Below are positions 43,476 through 61,099 of a stretch of 64,000 bases of DNA, piece after piece (position 1 is the stretch's first letter; the number at the start of each line of letters is the position of its first letter). Origin of the DNA: Acidobacterium sp. Lineage in GTDB: Bacteria > Acidobacteriota > Terriglobia > Terriglobales > Acidobacteriaceae. The position numbers were made by a program, and so were the translations under genes. The stretch lies in assembly GCA_003166955.1 (NCBI GenBank), contig PMUI01000085.1, positions 61,220 through 125,219 on the forward strand. The letters run 5' to 3'. The notes beneath the pieces are model-generated. The model worked only from the letters and a program-made list of their open reading frames with translations, searched no databases and was not told the origin of the DNA.

Positions 43476-43733
43476 ATGCTTCTGCGCCCCGATCCCGACC
43501 CGATTCGAGTGAGCGAACGATTTCGCCTCACCCTGGAGTCCACGATCCTCGAACTGGAAGCGGGAGCGGCGCGCGACGAGCGGATCCTGCCGCTGCTGGA
43601 GGATGAGGATCATCGCCGGCGCCAGCGGCTTCTGGTGGCGGCTCAACTGGAGCGGGCTTTCCGTCTGCGCGATCTGCTCGCCAGGACCGCTCGCCAGCCC
43701 GAGAGGAACCGCCTGACGGTTCAACCTTACTGA
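43476..43733 (+). CDS. Small hypothetical protein, charged helix-rich
   Basis: An 85-residue protein, very rich in Leu, Arg and Glu, with two likely helices (about 12-45 and 47-75; RFRLTLESTILELE, LLVAAQLERAFRLRDLL). GAGGAA precedes the ATG. No family was recognised. Its end overlaps the convergent lipoprotein gene by 7 bp. It could be a chance frame. Confidence 0.45.
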   Translation: MLLRPDPDPIRVSERFRLTLESTILELEAGAARDERILPLLEDEDHRRRQRLLVAAQLERAFRLRDLLARTARQPERNRLTVQPY

Positions 43734-45217
43734 GGGTGCTTTTCGCCGGGTTTGTTCTCCGGACGAGGTTGCTGTTGCGGCGGAGGGGCGGGCCGCGATT
43801 CCTGCCGCGGTGGCGGAGCGGGCCGCGATTCCGGCTGGGGTCGTGATTCGGGCTGCGGTGTGGGACGTGATTCGGGCTGAGGCCGCGACTCCGGTTGGGG
43901 GCGATTCTGGGGCCGGGGCTGCTGGGGTGGTGGCGCGGGCCGGGCTTCTGGCTGCGGCCGCGATTCCTGTCGTGGCGGTTGGGGCGCCGGCCTCGATTCC
44001 GGTTGCGGTCTCCCTTCAGGACGATTGAAAGGCTGTGGCTGGTTGCGTGGCTGTGGCGCCGGCCGTGACTCCGGCCTCGATTGCAGGCCAGGTCTCGATT
44101 CCGGCTGCGGTTGCGGAGCGGGCCGCGATTCGGGAGCAGGGCGGCCAGGCTGAGAACGCAGCCCTGGACCGGGCGTGGGTCGGGGCGCGGCAAGGGGACC
44201 AGGATTGCCTGGCGAAGGACGGCTTTCTGGAGTGGGAGCGGGGCGGCCTGCGTCGGTACGTCCCGCGGGCGCGGGGTGGAAGTCTTCGGGCCGGGGAGCG
44301 GGAGCGCCTCGTCCGTCGTTCGCCGGTCGATTGTCGGCGACCATCTGCGGACGGCCGTGATTCTGGTTCGCGAACTGGGCGCGATTCTGCATCGCGGCCT
44401 GCGCGTTGGAGCGCTGGGTGGGGAGCGGCGCGAAGTGGCGTTCGTTGCGGGCCGCTGACTGCTCGGGCGTGGGGCGGTAGTTGAGTCCACCATGGCCGCC
44501 GTTGTAGCTGACGCGCGCGGAATTGTAGTTATTCGTGATGCGGTAGTTGTAGACGTTACGGACGACAGTCACGTTCACGCGCGTGACGGCGGTGTTGTAG
44601 TAGAAGGCTCGGTCGCGCCAATAGCCGCCTTCATAGCCGTTGCCGTAGTAGCCGTGCCCGTAGTTCACGCCACCATAGAAGCCGATGTGCGGGCCCCAGT
44701 AGCCGTGGTACCAGCGATAACGGCCGCTATAGTAGCCCCAGTAGCCCGGAGTCCAGAGTGAGCCGACATACGGCGCCATCACCCACGCGCCTGGGACCCA
44801 GTAGTAGCCGGCGGGCGCATAGGCCCAGTAGCCGGGCGTCCAGATATAGTCGTCGCCGGGACAGGGTGGCTGGTCGTATTCGGGAATCTCGGGCGGAGGA
44901 TCGGAAGCGACGTCGTAGGCGGTGTCGGCATAGCCGGCTGACTCGTCGCCGGGATATTGATCGCCGTATCCGGACTGATCTCCGGACTGGTCGGGAGGCG
45001 GAGCCTGGTAGGACGGAGCCGGCTGCGAACCTGAACCCTGATCCGGCGGGGGAGGCGGCGGATTCTCGTTGCTCGCTGTTGTGTTGCTGGCGTTGGCCAG
45101 GTTGACGGAGGCCGGGTCGTCGCCGCTGGATTGAGCCTGGTTTTGATTGCCGTGACAGCCGGCCAGGGCGAGGGCGAAGAGCACTGCGGGGAGAAGAAGC
45201 TTGCCGAACCTGCTCAT
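43727..45217 (-). CDS. Lipoprotein with YXWGXW-like repeats and Pro/Arg-rich tail
   Basis: A 496-residue protein. The signal peptide ends in lipobox LAGC (Cys about 21). An acidic, Gly/Pro/Gln-rich part is followed by aromatic repeats of the YXWGXW/WVPG kind (about 115-190; IWTPGYWAYAPAGYYWVPGA). A domain with NVTVVRNVYN comes next, then a long low-complexity tail (about 290-496) built from PESRPAPQP-type repeats. It is predicted to sit in the outer membrane. The function is unknown; the basic Pro-rich tail resembles proteins that contact peptidoglycan or polysaccharide (inference). Confidence 0.85.
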   Translation of the reverse strand: MSRFGKLLLPAVLFALALAGCHGNQNQAQSSGDDPASVNLANASNTTASNENPPPPPPDQGSGSQPAPSYQAPPPDQSGDQSGYGDQYPGDESAGYADTAYDVASDPPPEIPEYDQPPCPGDDYIWTPGYWAYAPAGYYWVPGAWVMAPYVGSLWTPGYWGYYSGRYRWYHGYWGPHIGFYGGVNYGHGYYGNGYEGGYWRDRAFYYNTAVTRVNVTVVRNVYNYRITNNYNSARVSYNGGHGGLNYRPTPEQSAARNERHFAPLPTQRSNAQAAMQNRAQFANQNHGRPQMVADNRPANDGRGAPAPRPEDFHPAPAGRTDAGRPAPTPESRPSPGNPGPLAAPRPTPGPGLRSQPGRPAPESRPAPQPQPESRPGLQSRPESRPAPQPRNQPQPFNRPEGRPQPESRPAPQPPRQESRPQPEARPAPPPQQPRPQNRPQPESRPQPESRPTPQPESRPQPESRPAPPPRQESRPAPPPQQQPRPENKPGEKHPQ

Positions 45218-45809: not shown

Positions 45810-46592
45810 TTACAATCCCACCGATTGCGACTGATTTACAACTGATTCTGTTACATATTCGGCGAGCGCTTCGAGTTCGCCGGTCCTGGTTTCGCGCAGG
45901 GATTCGCCGGCGAGCAGGATGCCGGGGGCGGGGAGAGGCGCGAAACGGTCAAGATGCGACAGCGTGGTGCGGACGATCTGCTGATCGGGCTGGCTGGCGC
46001 GGGAGACAATGACGCAGGGCAGGTCAGCGGGGAGGCCTTCGCTGCGGAGTTGTGCGGCGATGGGGGTAAGGTCGCGGCCGGGCATGTAGACGACGCGCGT
46101 GGGTGCAGCGAGCGACGCTGGCTCAGGTGACGAACCGAGCGCGTGATGACCGGCGGAGAAGCTGACACGGGAAGCGTGGCGACGATCGGTGAGCGGCCGA
46201 CGCAGGGCGGCTGCTGCGGCGAAGGCGGCGGTGATTCCGGGGACGACTTCAAAGGGAATTGCGACGGCGCGGAGTGCGTCGATTTCTTCACCAGCACGGC
46301 CAAAGATGAGTGGGTCGCCGGATTTGAGGCGGATGACGGAGAGGCCGCGACGGGCCTCGTCGATCATCATCGCGTTGATTTGGTCCTGGGAGATGTTTTT
46401 GCGGCCGCAGCGCTTGCCGACGTTGATGATGAGCGCGGGGGTGGCATGGGTCAGGATCGCGGGCGGCACCAGGTCGTCGTGGAGGACGACGTCGGCGGTC
46501 GCGAGCAGACGGGCAGCCTTGAGAGTGAGCAGCTCGGGATCGCCGGGGCCTGCGCCGACGAGGTAGACGGTACCGGGATGAGCGATGGTCAT
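45810..46592 (-). CDS. cobA: Uroporphyrinogen-III C-methyltransferase
   Basis: A 260-residue SUMT-type enzyme that methylates uroporphyrinogen III twice with SAM to precorrin-2. Motifs are YLVGAGPGDPELLTLKA, ADVVLHDDLV, RLKSGDPLIFGRAGEE and VVPGITAAFAAAA. YMPGRDL replaces the usual YMG. The start at 46592 overlaps the stop of the dehydrogenase gene upstream (ATGA). It is the last gene of the reductase-siroheme operon and supplies siroheme to the reductase. Confidence 0.94.
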   Translation of the reverse strand: MTIAHPGTVYLVGAGPGDPELLTLKAARLLATADVVLHDDLVPPAILTHATPALIINVGKRCGRKNISQDQINAMMIDEARRGLSVIRLKSGDPLIFGRAGEEIDALRAVAIPFEVVPGITAAFAAAAALRRPLTDRRHASRVSFSAGHHALGSSPEPASLAAPTRVVYMPGRDLTPIAAQLRSEGLPADLPCVIVSRASQPDQQIVRTTLSHLDRFAPLPAPGILLAGESLRETRTGELEALAEYVTESVVNQSQSVGL

Positions 46593-47227
46593 GCGCGAGC
46601 CTCTTCCTGAACGGCGCGGATTCGTTCGCTGGCGAATTGGCGCGTCGGGCAGGAGGGTGAACCGCAAAGCTGGCGATGGGCCAACTCGTGCAGGAGCAAA
46701 TTGCGGGCTTCTCCGGCGGGCGTGGCGGCACGGACGTCGCGGCGGAGAGGGCCGAGTACGGCGAGCCAGGGAGCGAGGTCGGCGGGAAGCTGGGCGTCGA
46801 TTTCGCGGCGGAGACGCTGCGCGAGAGTGGGGCTTTCACCTGCGGTCGAGATGGCGATCTGCAGATCGCCGCGGGAGACGACGGATCCAAAGTAGAAGTC
46901 GCAGTTGGGCGGGTCGTCGACGGCGTTGCAAAGGATGTTGCGTCGCAGAGCTTCTTCGTAGACGGCGTGGTTTACGCCGGATGCGTTGGTGGCGGCGATG
47001 ACGAGGAAGGCGCCGTCAAGGTCTGAGGGTTCGAAGACGCGCTGATGCCAGGTGAGGGCGTTCTGCGCCGCAAGGGCGCGAACCTGGGGGATCGCGGCGG
47101 GGGCGACGACGGTGATCGCGGCTCCGGCAGCGAGCAGGCTCTCGATTTTGGCCAGGGCTACGGTACCGGCGCCAACGACGAGGCACGGGCGGCGGTCGAG
47201 ACGGAGGAAGACAGGCAGCAGGGTCAT
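46589..47227 (-). CDS. Precorrin-2 dehydrogenase / siroheme synthase N-domain
   Basis: A 212-residue Met8/CysG N-terminal-type protein that oxidises precorrin-2 to sirohydrochlorin and may insert iron. The Rossmann motif is CLVVGAGTVALAKIESLL; CNAVDDPPNCDFYFGSVV and ISTAGESPTLAQRLRREI follow. In E. coli these activities and SUMT are one protein; here they are separate adjacent genes. AAGGAGA precedes the start at 47227, 10 bp after the reductase stop. Confidence 0.93.
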   Translation of the reverse strand: MTLLPVFLRLDRRPCLVVGAGTVALAKIESLLAAGAAITVVAPAAIPQVRALAAQNALTWHQRVFEPSDLDGAFLVIAATNASGVNHAVYEEALRRNILCNAVDDPPNCDFYFGSVVSRGDLQIAISTAGESPTLAQRLRREIDAQLPADLAPWLAVLGPLRRDVRAATPAGEARNLLLHELAHRQLCGSPSCPTRQFASERIRAVQEEARA

Positions 47228-47237
47228 CGAAGTCTCC

Positions 47238-48965
47238 TTAGCCCGCCAGCTCGAGAGGAACGCGGCCGCTGGGCAGGTCACGCTCGACGGGAATCAATTC
47301 TTCGCCGGCTAAGGCGGCGCGCAGATCGGCGTCGCTATTGCGAGCGAACCAGGCGCGCAGATTCTCTCGAGGATCGCGTTCGGCGAGATATTTGCGCAGG
47401 AGGCGCTCGATGGCTTCGGGCACAAGAGGCGCGGGGGTGCGGAAGCCGACGGGACGAGCGGTGGCTGCGTGCTGGCCGACCGAGCCGCCGAGGCAGAAGT
47501 AATAAGCGTCGGTCAGGTGGCCTTCGTGTTTGACCTTCTTGCCTTCGAGTCCGATGTCGGCGATCCAGTGCTGGCCGCAGCTATTGGGGCAGCCGGTGAC
47601 GTGGAGGCGGAGCTGCTGGTCGAACTGGGGCAAGCGCTCTTCCATCTCGTCGACGAGCCAGCGCAGGAAGCCCTTGGTTTCGGTGATGGCGAGCTTGCAG
47701 AATTCTGTGCCGGTGCACGCGATGCCGCCGCGCCAGAAAGCCGAACCCTCCACGTGAAGGCCGAGCTGCTCGAGTTCACCGGCGAATTCGCCGGCGCGTG
47801 CTGTTGGGATGTTGAGGAAGAGCAGGTTCTGCATGACGGTGAGGCGGAGGGCAGTACCGTTCTCTGCCGCGGCGCCGGAGCCGAAGCGCTCGGCGAGGTC
47901 GGCTGCCGCGGCGAGCTGGTCGCCGGTGAGGCGTCCGCGCAGGACGCTGGCGCCGACGTAGCTGAGGCCGAACTGCTTTTGTGGATGTATGCCGGAGTGG
48001 TCGCGCAGGATGTCGTCGGGGACGGTTTCGTCGACGGCGGGATCTAATTTGTCACCGATTCGGTTCTGAATCTCGTCGAGGAAACGGCCGGCGGTCCAGC
48101 CTTCTTTCATGAAGAGGTACTTGAGGCGGGCTCGGTCGCGGCTTTCGCGCAGGCCCTGCTGGTCGCGGAAGATTTCGGCGATGGCGCGGACCACGGCCGG
48201 AGCCTGATTGGGGCGGACGAAGGCGTTGAGGCGGACGCCGAGATGGGGCTCATTGGAGAGGCCGCCGCCGACGCGGACGGAATAGCCGACTTGGGAATCG
48301 GGTTCAGGGCCGCGGCGGATCGCGGTGAGGCCGATGTCGTTGATCTCGGGATACGAGCACCAGACGGCGCAGCCGGTGATGGAGATTTTGAACTTGCGCG
48401 GCAGATTGTAGAAGTCGTTGTTGGCCTGCAGTGCGCGCGAGACTTCGATGGCGAGCGGCGAGGCGTCGATGATTTCGTCGTGCGCGATGCCGGCCAGAGG
48501 GCAGCCGGTGACGTTGCGGACGACGTCGCCGCAGGCGCCTTTTGGCGAGAGGCCGACGGCGTCGAGTGCTTCCATAACCTCGGGGATCGATTCGATGGTG
48601 AGCCAGTGAAACTGGATGTTCTGGCGCACGGTGATGTCGGCGAGGTTGCGGCCGTGGCGGCGCGCGATGCCGGCGAGGGCGCGGGCCTGATCGGCGCGGA
48701 GGATGCCGTTGGGGATGCCGACGCGCATCATGAAGTAGTCGGTGGCTTTGCCTTCGCCGCCTGAGCCGCCGGTGACGCCAACGCCGTCGCCCTGGGTGTA
48801 GATGCCCCACCAGCGGAAGTACGTGCTCCACTCGGCGGGGATGGAGGATCGGCCGTTGCGCGCGAAGGAGCGGATTTCTTCGATCGAGCCCCAGGGATTT
48901 TTCTCGTGCTTGAGCCGTTCTGCTCGCTGAGCTTTGGTTTCTTTGACTGCGGAGGGTTCCGCCAT
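47238..48965 (-). CDS. Ferredoxin-type sulfite (or nitrite) reductase
   Basis: A 575-residue siroheme/[4Fe-4S] reductase. Two ferrite-like half domains alternate with siroheme domains. The cluster Cys are in CTGTEFCKLA and HVTGCPNSCGQ. The N-terminal half has TVRQNIQFHWL and VVRNVTGCPLAG. It reduces sulfite to sulfide, or nitrite to ammonia, by six electrons. Sequence alone does not separate the two, but the Cys-rich leader ORF upstream favours sulfite. GGAGAG precedes the ATG. Genes for siroheme synthesis follow in the same operon. Confidence 0.9.
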   Translation of the reverse strand: MAEPSAVKETKAQRAERLKHEKNPWGSIEEIRSFARNGRSSIPAEWSTYFRWWGIYTQGDGVGVTGGSGGEGKATDYFMMRVGIPNGILRADQARALAGIARRHGRNLADITVRQNIQFHWLTIESIPEVMEALDAVGLSPKGACGDVVRNVTGCPLAGIAHDEIIDASPLAIEVSRALQANNDFYNLPRKFKISITGCAVWCSYPEINDIGLTAIRRGPEPDSQVGYSVRVGGGLSNEPHLGVRLNAFVRPNQAPAVVRAIAEIFRDQQGLRESRDRARLKYLFMKEGWTAGRFLDEIQNRIGDKLDPAVDETVPDDILRDHSGIHPQKQFGLSYVGASVLRGRLTGDQLAAAADLAERFGSGAAAENGTALRLTVMQNLLFLNIPTARAGEFAGELEQLGLHVEGSAFWRGGIACTGTEFCKLAITETKGFLRWLVDEMEERLPQFDQQLRLHVTGCPNSCGQHWIADIGLEGKKVKHEGHLTDAYYFCLGGSVGQHAATARPVGFRTPAPLVPEAIERLLRKYLAERDPRENLRAWFARNSDADLRAALAGEELIPVERDLPSGRVPLELAG

Positions 48966-48995
48966 TGATTCTCTCCGAAAAGATTGAGGGCAAAT

Positions 48996-49030
48996 AAAAA
49001 ACCCGCGTCAGCGGATAGCTGAAGCGCGGG
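48996..49030 (-). terminator. Intrinsic terminator in the reductase leader (attenuator)
   Basis: On the minus strand, CCCGCG pairs with CGCGGG and TCAGC with GCTGA (two-base bulge, five-base loop), followed by T6 and ATTTG. It lies between the leader ORF stop and the reductase start, so it would end transcription before the operon unless an alternative fold forms. Confidence 0.88.
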
Positions 49031-49057
49031 AGTTATGGGTGATTTTAGGCTAGAGGC

Positions 49058-49126
49058 TCATCCACAAGTCCGGCGCGGCGCACAACAACAAGCGCAACAA
49101 GCAACCGGATTGAAGCAGACTGCCAT
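49058..49126 (-). CDS. Cysteine-rich leader peptide of the reductase operon
   Basis: A 22-codon ORF on the minus strand, read directly from the sequence. Seven codons are Cys (residues 4, 10, 11, 13, 14, 15 and 21), including the run ACCACCCA. Five of them are clustered in six positions. The stop is 27 nt before the terminator hairpin. The ATG lies 7 bp after a -10 box, so it is probably translated from a leaderless transcript. The layout matches leader peptides of trp/his-type attenuators: ribosome stalling at Cys codons when charged tRNA-Cys is scarce would favour an antiterminator and allow transcription of the reductase genes. The antiterminator partner could not be fixed by eye; TCCGG/CCGGA flanking the Cys run is one candidate stem. 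Confidence 0.75.
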   Translation of the reverse strand: MAVCFNPVACCACCCAPRRTCG

Positions 49127-49133
49127 GAGTCCA

Positions 49134-49163
49134 ATGCTACGGGAGCGGACCTGGAGGGGTCAA
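49134..49163 (-). promoter_or_regulatory. Promoter of the reductase operon
   Basis: On the minus strand, TTGACC (-35, 49163-49158) is 18 bp from TAGCAT (-10, 49139-49134). The predicted transcription start falls at or next to the leader ATG at 49126. Confidence 0.6.
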
Positions 49164-49204: not shown

Positions 49205-49729
49205 TCATGATGCGCGGCCGGTTTTGGTGAGTTCGCGATAGAAGCCGAGGTCCTGCTCGGTCAGCATTTTGGTGACGTAGGCGATCTGGCCGTAGTGCAG
49301 GCCGAAGTGTTCGACGACCTGGTAAACGGCGTCGAGGCCGTGGACGTGGTAGCCCTGGATTTCGTAAGGCGCGACGAGGTCGGCTTCGGTGAGGCGGTCG
49401 AGAACGAGGGCGGCCTCGTTGATGGTTGCGCCGAGTTTCTCGAGGAGGGCGGCGCGAGAGAGGTTGCCGGCTGCTGCGAATTCGGCGGGGCGGTCGCGAT
49501 TGTCTTCGTTCTTATTGAAGGAATCGACGAGCCACTGGCGGACGTTGCCGTTGAGATGGAGGACGAGATTGCCGATAGAGTTCGAGGAGGGGTTGGGACG
49601 CCACCAAATCTGCTCGTCTGTGAGGGACTCGACGCAATGACGGAGGCGCGGCCAGAACTGATGGAGGAGCTTGTCGCGGGAGAAGGCGATGAAGAGGTGG
49701 GTGGATGAGAGCTGGACCTGCGCGGACAT
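49205..49729 (-). CDS. DinB-superfamily protein
   Basis: A 174-residue helical protein of the DinB/YfiT-like four-helix bundle. The metal-site-type His residues are seen in NLVLHLNGNVRQW and VEHFGLHYGQIAYVTKML. The N-terminal DEQIWWRPNPSSNSIGN stretch is typical. Family members are thiol or glutathione-type transferases or metal hydrolases; the exact reaction is unknown. It ends 42 bp upstream of the reductase promoter on the same strand. Confidence 0.88.
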   Translation of the reverse strand: MSAQVQLSSTHLFIAFSRDKLLHQFWPRLRHCVESLTDEQIWWRPNPSSNSIGNLVLHLNGNVRQWLVDSFNKNEDNRDRPAEFAAAGNLSRAALLEKLGATINEAALVLDRLTEADLVAPYEIQGYHVHGLDAVYQVVEHFGLHYGQIAYVTKMLTEQDLGFYRELTKTGRAS

Positions 49730-50522: not shown

Positions 50523-51869
50523 CTAGGTTGCGGAGGAATCGTCGTCGACTGCGGTGTCGTCTGCCGGGGCTTCCTCTGCGGGAGCGTCATCCACCGGAGC
50601 CTCTTCTGCAGGAGCCTCCTCCGCCGGAGCATCATCGACCGGGGTATCGGTGGAGACTTCCGAGGAGGGATCGGTCTGGGCTAACTCGTCGCCGTGTTCG
50701 CCCGCTTCTCCGGCAGTGTCGGCTTCTCCCTGTGCGGTGTCCGCGGCCGCCGAGTAGATCGCGGCGTCGTCCGGATTCCCGGAGTCAGCGTAACTCTGAG
50801 CCGTCGCCGCGTTCTGATCGGCGGTTTGCTGATCCCAGTTAGCCCAGCTTTCGTTCTGGGTTTCGTCATAGGCGGTGCCGGAGTGGTCGGTGCCGCCGGC
50901 ATTGTCATCCGCGCTCTGGGTGGTGGTTTCGGCTTGCCAGGCATCGTTCTCAGCGGTTGCGTAATCGCCCGAGGCGGCGGCCTGTCCCTCTGCCGTTTCG
51001 TCCTGCTGGGCTGTTGCCTGCTGGTCCGCAGCGGCGCCCAGCTGGGTGGAGTCGGAGCCGTCGAGCATGCTGGTGTCGCCCGCCTGGCCGGCCTCGGTTT
51101 CCGCCTGGGCGCGATCTTCCGACGCCGTCGCGTAGTCGCCCGAAGCGACGGCGGCGTCGGCCGACTGCTGATCGGAGGTCGCTGAAGCGGCAGCGGCAGC
51201 AGCGTCGGGGTCGACGGAATCGGTCGCCGGAGCATCGGGATCGGCGCTGCCCACTGTGGTGGTGGGATCCGTCCCCGTAGTGTCGGTCGAGCTGGTGTCG
51301 GTGGAGGAGATGGTCCCGGTATCCGTGGGGTCGGCAGTGCCAACTTCGCCGGTTGTAGGGGCGTCGGTTCCTGGGTCCGCGTAACCTGTTGGGTCATCGG
51401 TGCCGGTCGCCGTTGCGGTTCCGTCGCCGTAGCCGGTCCCGGTTCCGTCCCCGTAGCCGGTTCCGTCGGTGCCGGAGGCTGTACCCGGATCGGCGAAGCC
51501 TACTGGCCCATCGGATCCGGACCCGGTTTCGTCTCCAGTTCCGGTTCCGTCACCCGATCCAGTTCCGGTTCCGTCGCTGTAGCCGGTTGCGGTTCCATCC
51601 GAGGACCCTGTGCCGTCGCCTGTGCCGTCGGTGGCGGTGATATCGCTGGCGGGTTCGACGATGACGACTTCTTCGACCACACCTTCGGCAGTTGCGGCCG
51701 AGCCGGTGGCGGTACCGTTACTACCGATCGGATCGAGGATGACGTCAATGATTTCTTCCGTCACCGATCCGGAGCCCGAGGAACTGGTGGAGTCGCCGGA
51801 GATCGCGGCCGCGGTGGAGGCGTCCTCGGGAACAATGACTTCGATCACATTCGTGTTGTCGTCTGGCAT
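50523..51869 (-). CDS. Acidic low-complexity (disordered) protein
   Basis: A 448-residue protein made almost wholly of Asp, Thr, Gly, Ala, Ser and Glu. The N-terminal part (about 1-80) has a few hydrophobic segments (NVIEVIVPED, EEIIDVILDPIG, EEVVIVEPAS). Residues about 80-190 are GTGYGDGT-type repeats. About 210-390 is Ala/Gln/Thr/Asp-rich with repeated ASGDYATAE, suggesting weak coiled or TPR-like turns. The tail is APAEEAPxDD repeats. It has no signal peptide or anchor. It lies 30 bp downstream of the zinc-ribbon M48-like gene on the same strand, so the two form a likely operon. The function is unknown; codon use is ordinary. Confidence 0.75.
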   Translation of the reverse strand: MPDDNTNVIEVIVPEDASTAAAISGDSTSSSGSGSVTEEIIDVILDPIGSNGTATGSAATAEGVVEEVVIVEPASDITATDGTGDGTGSSDGTATGYSDGTGTGSGDGTGTGDETGSGSDGPVGFADPGTASGTDGTGYGDGTGTGYGDGTATATGTDDPTGYADPGTDAPTTGEVGTADPTDTGTISSTDTSSTDTTGTDPTTTVGSADPDAPATDSVDPDAAAAAASATSDQQSADAAVASGDYATASEDRAQAETEAGQAGDTSMLDGSDSTQLGAAADQQATAQQDETAEGQAAASGDYATAENDAWQAETTTQSADDNAGGTDHSGTAYDETQNESWANWDQQTADQNAATAQSYADSGNPDDAAIYSAAADTAQGEADTAGEAGEHGDELAQTDPSSEVSTDTPVDDAPAEEAPAEEAPVDDAPAEEAPADDTAVDDDSSAT

Positions 51870-60794: not shown

Positions 60795-61040
60795 CGGGAA
60801 TGGTCCCACAGGCGTGCTGGCGACTGCAGTGAATCCAGGCAATGGGATGTTCGGGAAGGCGGTGAAAATCCGCCACTGCCCCGCAACTGTAAGCGCGTAT
60901 TCCTGCGTCAGGTGAGAGGGAGATGCAGGGAGGGCCGGCCGATGTGCCACTGGAGCGAGAGCTTCGGGAAGGCGGCCGGGCTGGTTCTTCGGGATGAAAG
61001 CCGAAGGACGGCGCGCGAGTCAGGAGACCGGTCCCGTATG
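60795..61040 (+). ncRNA. Cobalamin riboswitch
   Basis: The conserved core is present: GGTGAAAATCC and GCCACTGCCCCGCAACTGTAAG (60861-60892, written in two overlapping parts), then GCCACTGG with CGGGAAGGC (about 60941-60976), the GCCGAAGGACGGC arm and the 3' signature GAGTCAGGAGACC (61018-61029). It lies about 60 bp upstream of the TonB-dependent receptor at 61100. Adenosylcobalamin binding would repress that gene. The outer boundaries are approximate. Confidence 0.93.
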
Positions 61041-61099
61041 CCGGGCTTGTTTCGGTTGACAGGCTCATTTACCGCGTTCCGAGGGGGACGGAGGAGACT

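Follow-up and report, generated by a model that had tools for sequence, protein, structure and literature searches.

A putative leaderless cysteine-codon attenuator upstream of a reductase-siroheme operon in Acidobacteriaceae

Introduction

The DNA analysed in this work, called here the window, is a 64,000-nucleotide stretch of an Acidobacterium sp. genome (assembly GCA_003166955.1, contig PMUI01000085.1). On its minus strand a short open reading frame (ORF) with a run of cysteine codons, followed by a hairpin with a T run, lies in front of genes for a siroheme-dependent reductase and for siroheme synthesis. The locus raises the question whether the short ORF is the sensor of a ribosome-mediated transcription attenuator responding to cysteine and whether the enzyme encoded downstream reduces sulfite rather than nitrite. 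Both had been proposed in a preliminary description made from the sequence alone.

Cysteine-rich leader ORFs are known from mycobacteria and their relatives, a point of the preliminary description that is borne out by earlier reports: Cys leaders without terminators were predicted in actinobacteria by Seliverstov et al. in 2005 (excerpts of PMC1262725), and Cys-directed attenuation was proposed in mycobacteria by Shell et al. in 2015 (excerpts of PMC4633059). Leaderless polycysteine attenuators are the subject of Canestrari et al. 2020, as cited in the available portions of PMC9031893 and PMC13236596. Brewer et al. predicted in 2021 a terminator-type cysS attenuator in Rhodobacterales, the uORFC-8-2 motif (PMC8632094); Acidobacteria are not among the phyla listed in the excerpts of that study. 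Almost none of the attenuators predicted in Acidobacteria had an assigned function, as far as the available part of PMC2965389 goes. The preliminary description knew of no described case of Cys-codon attenuation in Acidobacteria, and none was found in the literature searched, most subscription journals being outside its scope.

Results

The leader and the operon in the window

The elements of the operon and of its leader are the following.

49158..49163, minus strand: -35 element TTGACC, also seen before related leaders
49134..49139, minus strand: -10 element TAGCAT, with an 18-nt spacer to the -35 element and 7 nt before the ATG
49058..49126, minus strand: leader ORF MAVCFNPVACCACCCAPRRTCG with its stop codon, 22 codons, 7 Cys codons (5 TGT, 2 TGC)
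49105..49109, minus strand: segment 1 (UCCGG), pairing with CCGGA 49073-49069 in the 1:2 protector helix; conserved
49082..49099, minus strand: Cys cluster (Cys Cys Ala Cys Cys Cys) at codons 10-15, where the ribosome is predicted to stall
49062..49076, minus strand: segment 2 (GCGCCGGACUUGUGG), 5' strand of the antiterminator, formed by the final sense codons of the ORF
49024..49038, minus strand: segment 3 (CCAUAACUCCCGCGC), 3' strand of the antiterminator, including the terminator 5' arm CCCGCG
48996..49030, minus strand: intrinsic terminator (3:4), an 11-bp hairpin (49030-49002) with a 2-nt bulge and T6 at 49001-48996
47238..48965, minus strand: siroheme/Fe4S4 reductase, 575 aa, NirA/SirA type, likely a sulfite reductase
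46589..47281, minus strand: siroheme synthase N-terminal type protein (precorrin-2 dehydrogenase), overlapping the end of the reductase gene
45810..46667, minus strand: uroporphyrinogen-III C-methyltransferase

The layout given in the preliminary description was found base for base: the TTGACC-18-TAGCAT promoter almost directly before the ORF, the 22 codons with seven Cys, five of them within six positions, and the 11-bp hairpin with T6 between the ORF and the reductase operon. The ORF starts with the ATG at 49126 and has its Cys residues at codons 4, 10, 11, 13, 14, 15 and 21. Its stop codon is separated from the hairpin by 27 nt, T6 from the reductase ATG (48965) by 30 nt, and the ORF end from the reductase start by 92 nt; the reductase ATG is preceded by an SD-like GGAGAG. 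The position of the promoter puts the probable start of transcription on the first base of the leader ATG or adjacent to it. By themselves the promoter scan (2 sites in 8 kb vs. 0.8 expected) and the terminator scan (9 found vs. 6.2 expected) were not decisive.

Conservation of the leader

Orthologues of the reductase were taken from GTDB species genomes (80 loci, the best 80 of 197) and from further genomes of the same family, where a match was present in 153 of 200. After 20 duplicates had been merged, the set consisted of 178 distinct upstream regions, the window included. L021 and L088 were excluded (short upstream DNA), and L040, L069 and L164 were excluded from the duplex-swap, promoter-placement and equilibrium-switch tests. 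To count as a leader ORF, a short ORF had to have three or more Cys within seven residues; 2054 control windows of 450 nt were drawn from the same loci.

At this threshold 67 of the 78 reductase loci with sufficient upstream DNA were positive compared with 128 of 2054 control windows, and with at least five Cys in seven residues the counts were 28/78 and 2/2054. The frequency of the Cys cluster exceeds chance. In the complete set the ORF was present in 154 of the 178 distinct upstream regions and missing from 24; roughly ten of the 154 leaders could be chance occurrences, because about 6% of the control windows pass the three-Cys threshold. Cultured strains with the leader include Granulicella aggregans M8UP14 (L041), Edaphobacter lichenicola (L051/L052) and Paracidobacterium acidisoli (L011); in Terriglobus roseus DSM 18391 (L056) no Cys leader was found. 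None of the five regions from outside the family (L250-L254) had the ORF, a number too small to place the boundary of its distribution. A frame of at least 100 codons on the same strand, ending less than 80 nt before the reductase gene or entering it, was found in 13 of the 24 regions without leader vs. 9 of the 154 with leader, which suggests that some of the former lie inside longer operons.

The residues flanking the Cys cluster differ between clades, and recurrent C-terminal residues, e.g. RRTCG or GAGRLLT, are seen within single clades. This is the pattern that the preliminary description had named as supporting evidence, conserved Cys runs with variable flanks: the ORF and its cluster are kept and the flanks vary. 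A hairpin with a T run was located between ORF and gene in 149 of the 154 leaders and in 9 of the 24 regions without leader, by a permissive terminator finder that also fires in 489 of 1540 dinucleotide shuffles (32%). The distance from the stop codon to the terminator arm has a median of 30 nt across the leaders (5-95%: 23-43).

A TTGAC-type -35 element with a TAnnnT -10 element stands before the start codon in 128 of 146 leaders vs. 7.5% of shuffles. The gap between the -10 element and the start codon is 6 or 7 nt in 83 of these 128 leaders, and an SD-like 4-mer occurs in six of them. Such spacing is the geometry of a leaderless mRNA, and on this ground we consider the transcripts probably leaderless. 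It also agrees with the preliminary description in placing the predicted start at the ORF and not downstream of it.

In the part of the leaders that begins with the first Cys of the cluster there are 527 TGT and 248 TGC codons, compared with TGT:TGC ratios of 5:85 in ten reductase genes and 8:24 in seven genes of the window. Use of the rarer Cys codon may sharpen sensing, or it may simply keep the cluster unpaired.

Alternative folds

There are three competing pairings in the window leader: 1:2 (UCCGG 49109-49105 with CCGGA 49073-49069), 2:3 (49076-49062 with 49038-49024; 13 pairs, two mismatches) and the terminator, 3:4. In the calculations the ribosome was modelled as a mask extending 12 nt beyond the first nucleotide of the codon in the A site. 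The computed probability of the terminator was 0.985 without ribosome, where the protector pairing that gives termination is present, and again 0.985 with the ribosome at the stop codon. It fell to 0.297, 0.232, 0.053, 0.083 and 0.383 when Cys codon 4, 10, 11, 13 or 14, respectively, occupied the A site, and was 0.544 at codon 15 and 0.985 at codon 21. This last Cys codon lies inside segment 2, and a ribosome stalled there would favour termination. When the intervening segment was shuffled, 8 of 500 sequences (11 of 500 by minimum) switched as strongly as the window. The antiterminator overlapping the 5' arm of the terminator, which the preliminary description had left to be computed, does exist: the last codons of the ORF pair with the arm, and in the window the computed switch follows the position of the ribosome.

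Other clades have different helix sequences in the same layout, e.g. GCGCcGGA/UCCcGCGC, CUGGCG/CGCCAG and GCUGAGCcGG/CCGCUCAGC. In 46 clusters the leaders' own 2:3 duplexes were stronger than duplexes made by swapping strands between leaders (-18.8 vs. -14.9 kcal/mol, median rank 0.19, KS p 2e-6), and so were their own 1:2 duplexes (KS p 0.0013). Segment 2 against the terminator 5' arm alone gave p 0.055, and the 1:3 control duplex had a median rank of 0.51 with a nominal p of 0.043.

The mean equilibrium switch was 0.184 in the leaders vs. 0.051 in shuffles, and 30 of the 146 leaders (7 of the 46 clusters) had values of at least 0.3; the switch exceeded the shuffles in 31 of 46 clusters when cluster means were compared (p 5e-4) and in 26 of 46 with single representatives (p 0.014). 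The truncated-transcript test gave means of 0.65 for the stalled state, 0.22 for the stop codon and 0.50 for shuffled sequences, and 15 of 149 leaders surpassed their own shuffles at p <=0.05. Because an equilibrium switch of at least 0.3 is confined to 30 of the 146 leaders, most relatives would depend on kinetic trapping or deviate in the details. According to these models the architecture is general, and a clean equilibrium switch is found only in the window and some relatives.

Sulfite or nitrite

The reductase scores below both curated NCBIfam cut-offs, thus the family name is not fixed by this comparison. It is the single match of that protein in its genome. The active-site stretch reads LPRKFK in the window enzyme, LPRKYK in 1zj8 and LPRKWN in 2akj, i.e. 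the window reductase has the second Lys (RKxK) and not Asn (RKxN); we take this Lys to mark sulfite reductases and the Asn to mark nitrite reductases. Two further residues, the Tyr in WGIYTQ and the Cys in ACGD, line up with their counterparts in 1zj8. The PDB entry 1zj8 is titled nitrite reductase; its LPRKYK, Tyr and Cys residues are presumably those of the sulfite-reducing M. tuberculosis enzyme. The window enzyme, of SirA/NirA type, therefore likely reduces sulfite. The preference of the preliminary description for sulfite over nitrite is supported by these residues and by the fact that cysD and cysH of relatives in the genus have a leader of this kind (see below).

A search for CysH/CysD-type proteins (PF01507) gave no match for the window's genome or for four others of the genus, though these have kept the reductase or the leader; among the 12 genomes of the genus, 7 have PF01507 genes. 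It is possible that in the window's genome, where PF01507 has no match, sulfite comes from sulfonates or thiosulfate. Three oxidoreductase matches returned by the PF04879 search leave room for a nitrate pathway in this genome. The results with PF01747 were uninformative, because two of the four relatives searched lack it and yet have PF01507 genes.

Leaders at other genes

In other genomes of the genus the leader precedes cysD (L260, L261 and L262) and cysH (L268, L270 and L271; three Cys only in L268). These leaders share the promoter, the Cys cluster, a CGGACTTG-like segment and the terminator. A covariance model of the leaders had a full-length match with E 9e-25 or better in all 12 genomes of the genus; most of its 17 strong matches came from the training set, and a copy beside a PF01507 gene in G167 did not.

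A second leader, located in front of an AhpC/1-Cys-type peroxiredoxin gene, is present in the window's own genome (G000):

L289:2886-2960 (genome G000:C121, outside the window), minus strand: second Cys leader MNAFSPTCMCMCCCCCGCTMRVCV with promoter and terminator

The best 30 of 44 related peroxiredoxin matches were inspected; a Cys-cluster ORF was found before 20 of these genes, accompanied by a terminator in 16 of the 20 and by a promoter site in 15. The MNAFSPTCMCMCCCCCGCTMRVCV leader showed no equilibrium switch, the probability of the terminator being 0.94-0.996 in all states, so its mechanism is something we infer rather than read from the fold.

The second leader had been reached by chance, through a flank in a pattern search with TGYGYNTGYTGYTGY, which hit five places in the window's genome, among which only the window's leader looked real. 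The pattern TGYTGYNNNTGYTGY was too loose for this genome (79 places vs. 42 for a reversed control). A leaderless-promoter pattern gave 20 places there, and only that in the window begins a Cys-rich ORF; the peroxiredoxin leader was missed because its spacing is 10. An additional place found in G000 with model R1 (E 1.3e-6) was discarded as a terminator hairpin without Cys ORF, as was L339, and L342 showed nothing clear. A microRNA match near the peroxiredoxin leader was weak (E 0.071, far below the cut-off) and was not considered further.

As a target cysS was rejected: of 19 cysS regions examined in relatives, 18 are without a Cys cluster, and the remaining one, which comes from a different family of the order, has three Cys within seven residues, a number at chance level. 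In L265, which belongs to a different family of the order, a PF01507 gene is preceded by a short Cys-rich ORF and a terminator hairpin. Among such PF01507 loci of that family 3 of 9 have a cluster of at least four Cys, weak evidence alone as whole loci were scanned; L265 is a hint that the system may extend beyond Acidobacteriaceae.

Discussion

We propose that the operon is preceded by a ribosome-mediated transcription attenuator sensing cysteinyl-tRNA, a reading to which we assign a probability of about 0.87. The cysteine-sensing layout suggested in the preliminary description is thereby supported by computation, i.e. by conservation, competing folds and promoter placement. According to this proposal RNA polymerase would start at or beside the ATG of the leaderless Cys-rich ORF. 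With ample cysteine, the translating ribosome would reach the stop codon and cover segment 2, and the terminator (3:4) would form. It would form also when no ribosome is present, segment 1 then holding segment 2. If charged tRNA-Cys is scarce, a ribosome would wait at codon 4 or at codons 10-14 and leave segment 2 free; this could then pair with the 5' arm of the terminator, and the polymerase would read through into the reductase-siroheme operon.

It is instructive to set this proposal against other explanations of the same features. The polycysteine ORFs of mycobacteria share the leaderless Cys-cluster design and the position before sulfur genes (PMC9031893, PMC4633059, both in excerpt), and the leader could, like them, act by translational attenuation, cysteine setting the passage of ribosomes through the ORF and thereby the translation of the downstream gene, with a hairpin of little weight for transcription. 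We think this unlikely in view of the intrinsic terminators after 149 of 154 leaders (32% in shuffles) and of the 92 nt that separate the ORF end in the window from a reductase gene with an SD-like GGAGAG before it. Recurrent Cys clusters, together with clade-wise C-terminal residues such as RRTCG and GAGRLLT, would also be expected of a functional micropeptide binding metals or thiols, the hairpin being an ordinary terminator. Beyond the cluster, however, the residues vary by clade, and the clade-specific C-termini overlap the antiterminator strand; the ORF keeps a constant position before sulfur-assimilation genes and a terminator, and a constitutive terminator would silence the operon's own promoter. 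The micropeptide is in our opinion quite improbable.

A leader with alternative folds before a sulfur operon could also belong to a metabolite riboswitch or a T-box, for neither of which a coding Cys cluster is expected; Rfam gave no match in 49250-48900 at E up to 1 and none at gathering scores, and we give this possibility very little weight. Finally, the ORF could have arisen by chance, and the hairpin could be the terminator of the upstream DUF1572/DinB-like gene, which is on the same strand and ends at 49205. This is hardly credible: the ORF is separated from that gene by a promoter, and conservation (154 of 178 regions vs. 128 of 2054 control windows) contradicts it.

The attenuator proposed here has the parts of the classical trp/his systems, a leader ORF with regulatory codons, a protector, an antiterminator and an intrinsic terminator, all found computationally, and differs from them in that cysteine would be sensed, the start is predicted to be leaderless and the host belongs to the Acidobacteria. 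A leaderless start is not new per se: the trpL transcript of S. meliloti begins at its ATG, according to an excerpt of PMC7298713. With the mycobacterial ORFs it has in common the leaderless start, the runs of Cys codons and the link to sulfur-metabolism operons (excerpts of PMC9031893 and PMC4633059); the mycobacterial cys operons, in contrast, are without conserved terminator hairpins in the available text of PMC1262725, whereas a terminator and a competing antiterminator are found here. Like the window leader, uORFC-8-2 has Cys codons in the upstream ORF, a terminator-type stem with a U run and a proposed ribosome-mediated attenuation, but it has two tandem Cys codons, concerns cysS only and comes from Alphaproteobacteria, as described in the accessible part of PMC8632094.

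We put forward tentatively, at slightly less than even odds, that Acidobacteriaceae have a dispersed regulon of Cys-codon attenuators which couples tRNA-Cys charging to sulfur assimilation and thiol defence. If it exists, loss of free cysteine by starvation or oxidation would raise the reductase-siroheme, cysD or cysH and peroxiredoxin functions together without any protein regulator, and cysteine supply and the defence against peroxides would be linked through RNA. The attenuator itself would extend terminator-based, cysteine-sensing attenuation to a phylum whose predicted attenuators had almost no functions, judging by the excerpted PMC2965389. It would offer a handle on sulfur control in abundant and poorly studied soil bacteria, and it supports the name sulfite reductase for the window enzyme. 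The combination of a leaderless start with a classical antiterminator would also bear on how a ribosome can keep up with the polymerase without a Shine-Dalgarno site.

Some other features of the window were noted in passing:

60828-61050, plus strand: cobalamin riboswitch (74.7 bits)
50523-51869, minus strand: long low-complexity ORF rich in Gly, Thr and Asp, 448 aa, without Pfam match
43727-45217, minus strand: predicted protein of 496 aa that matches the WXXGXW repeat and has a long tail rich in Pro, Arg and Glu
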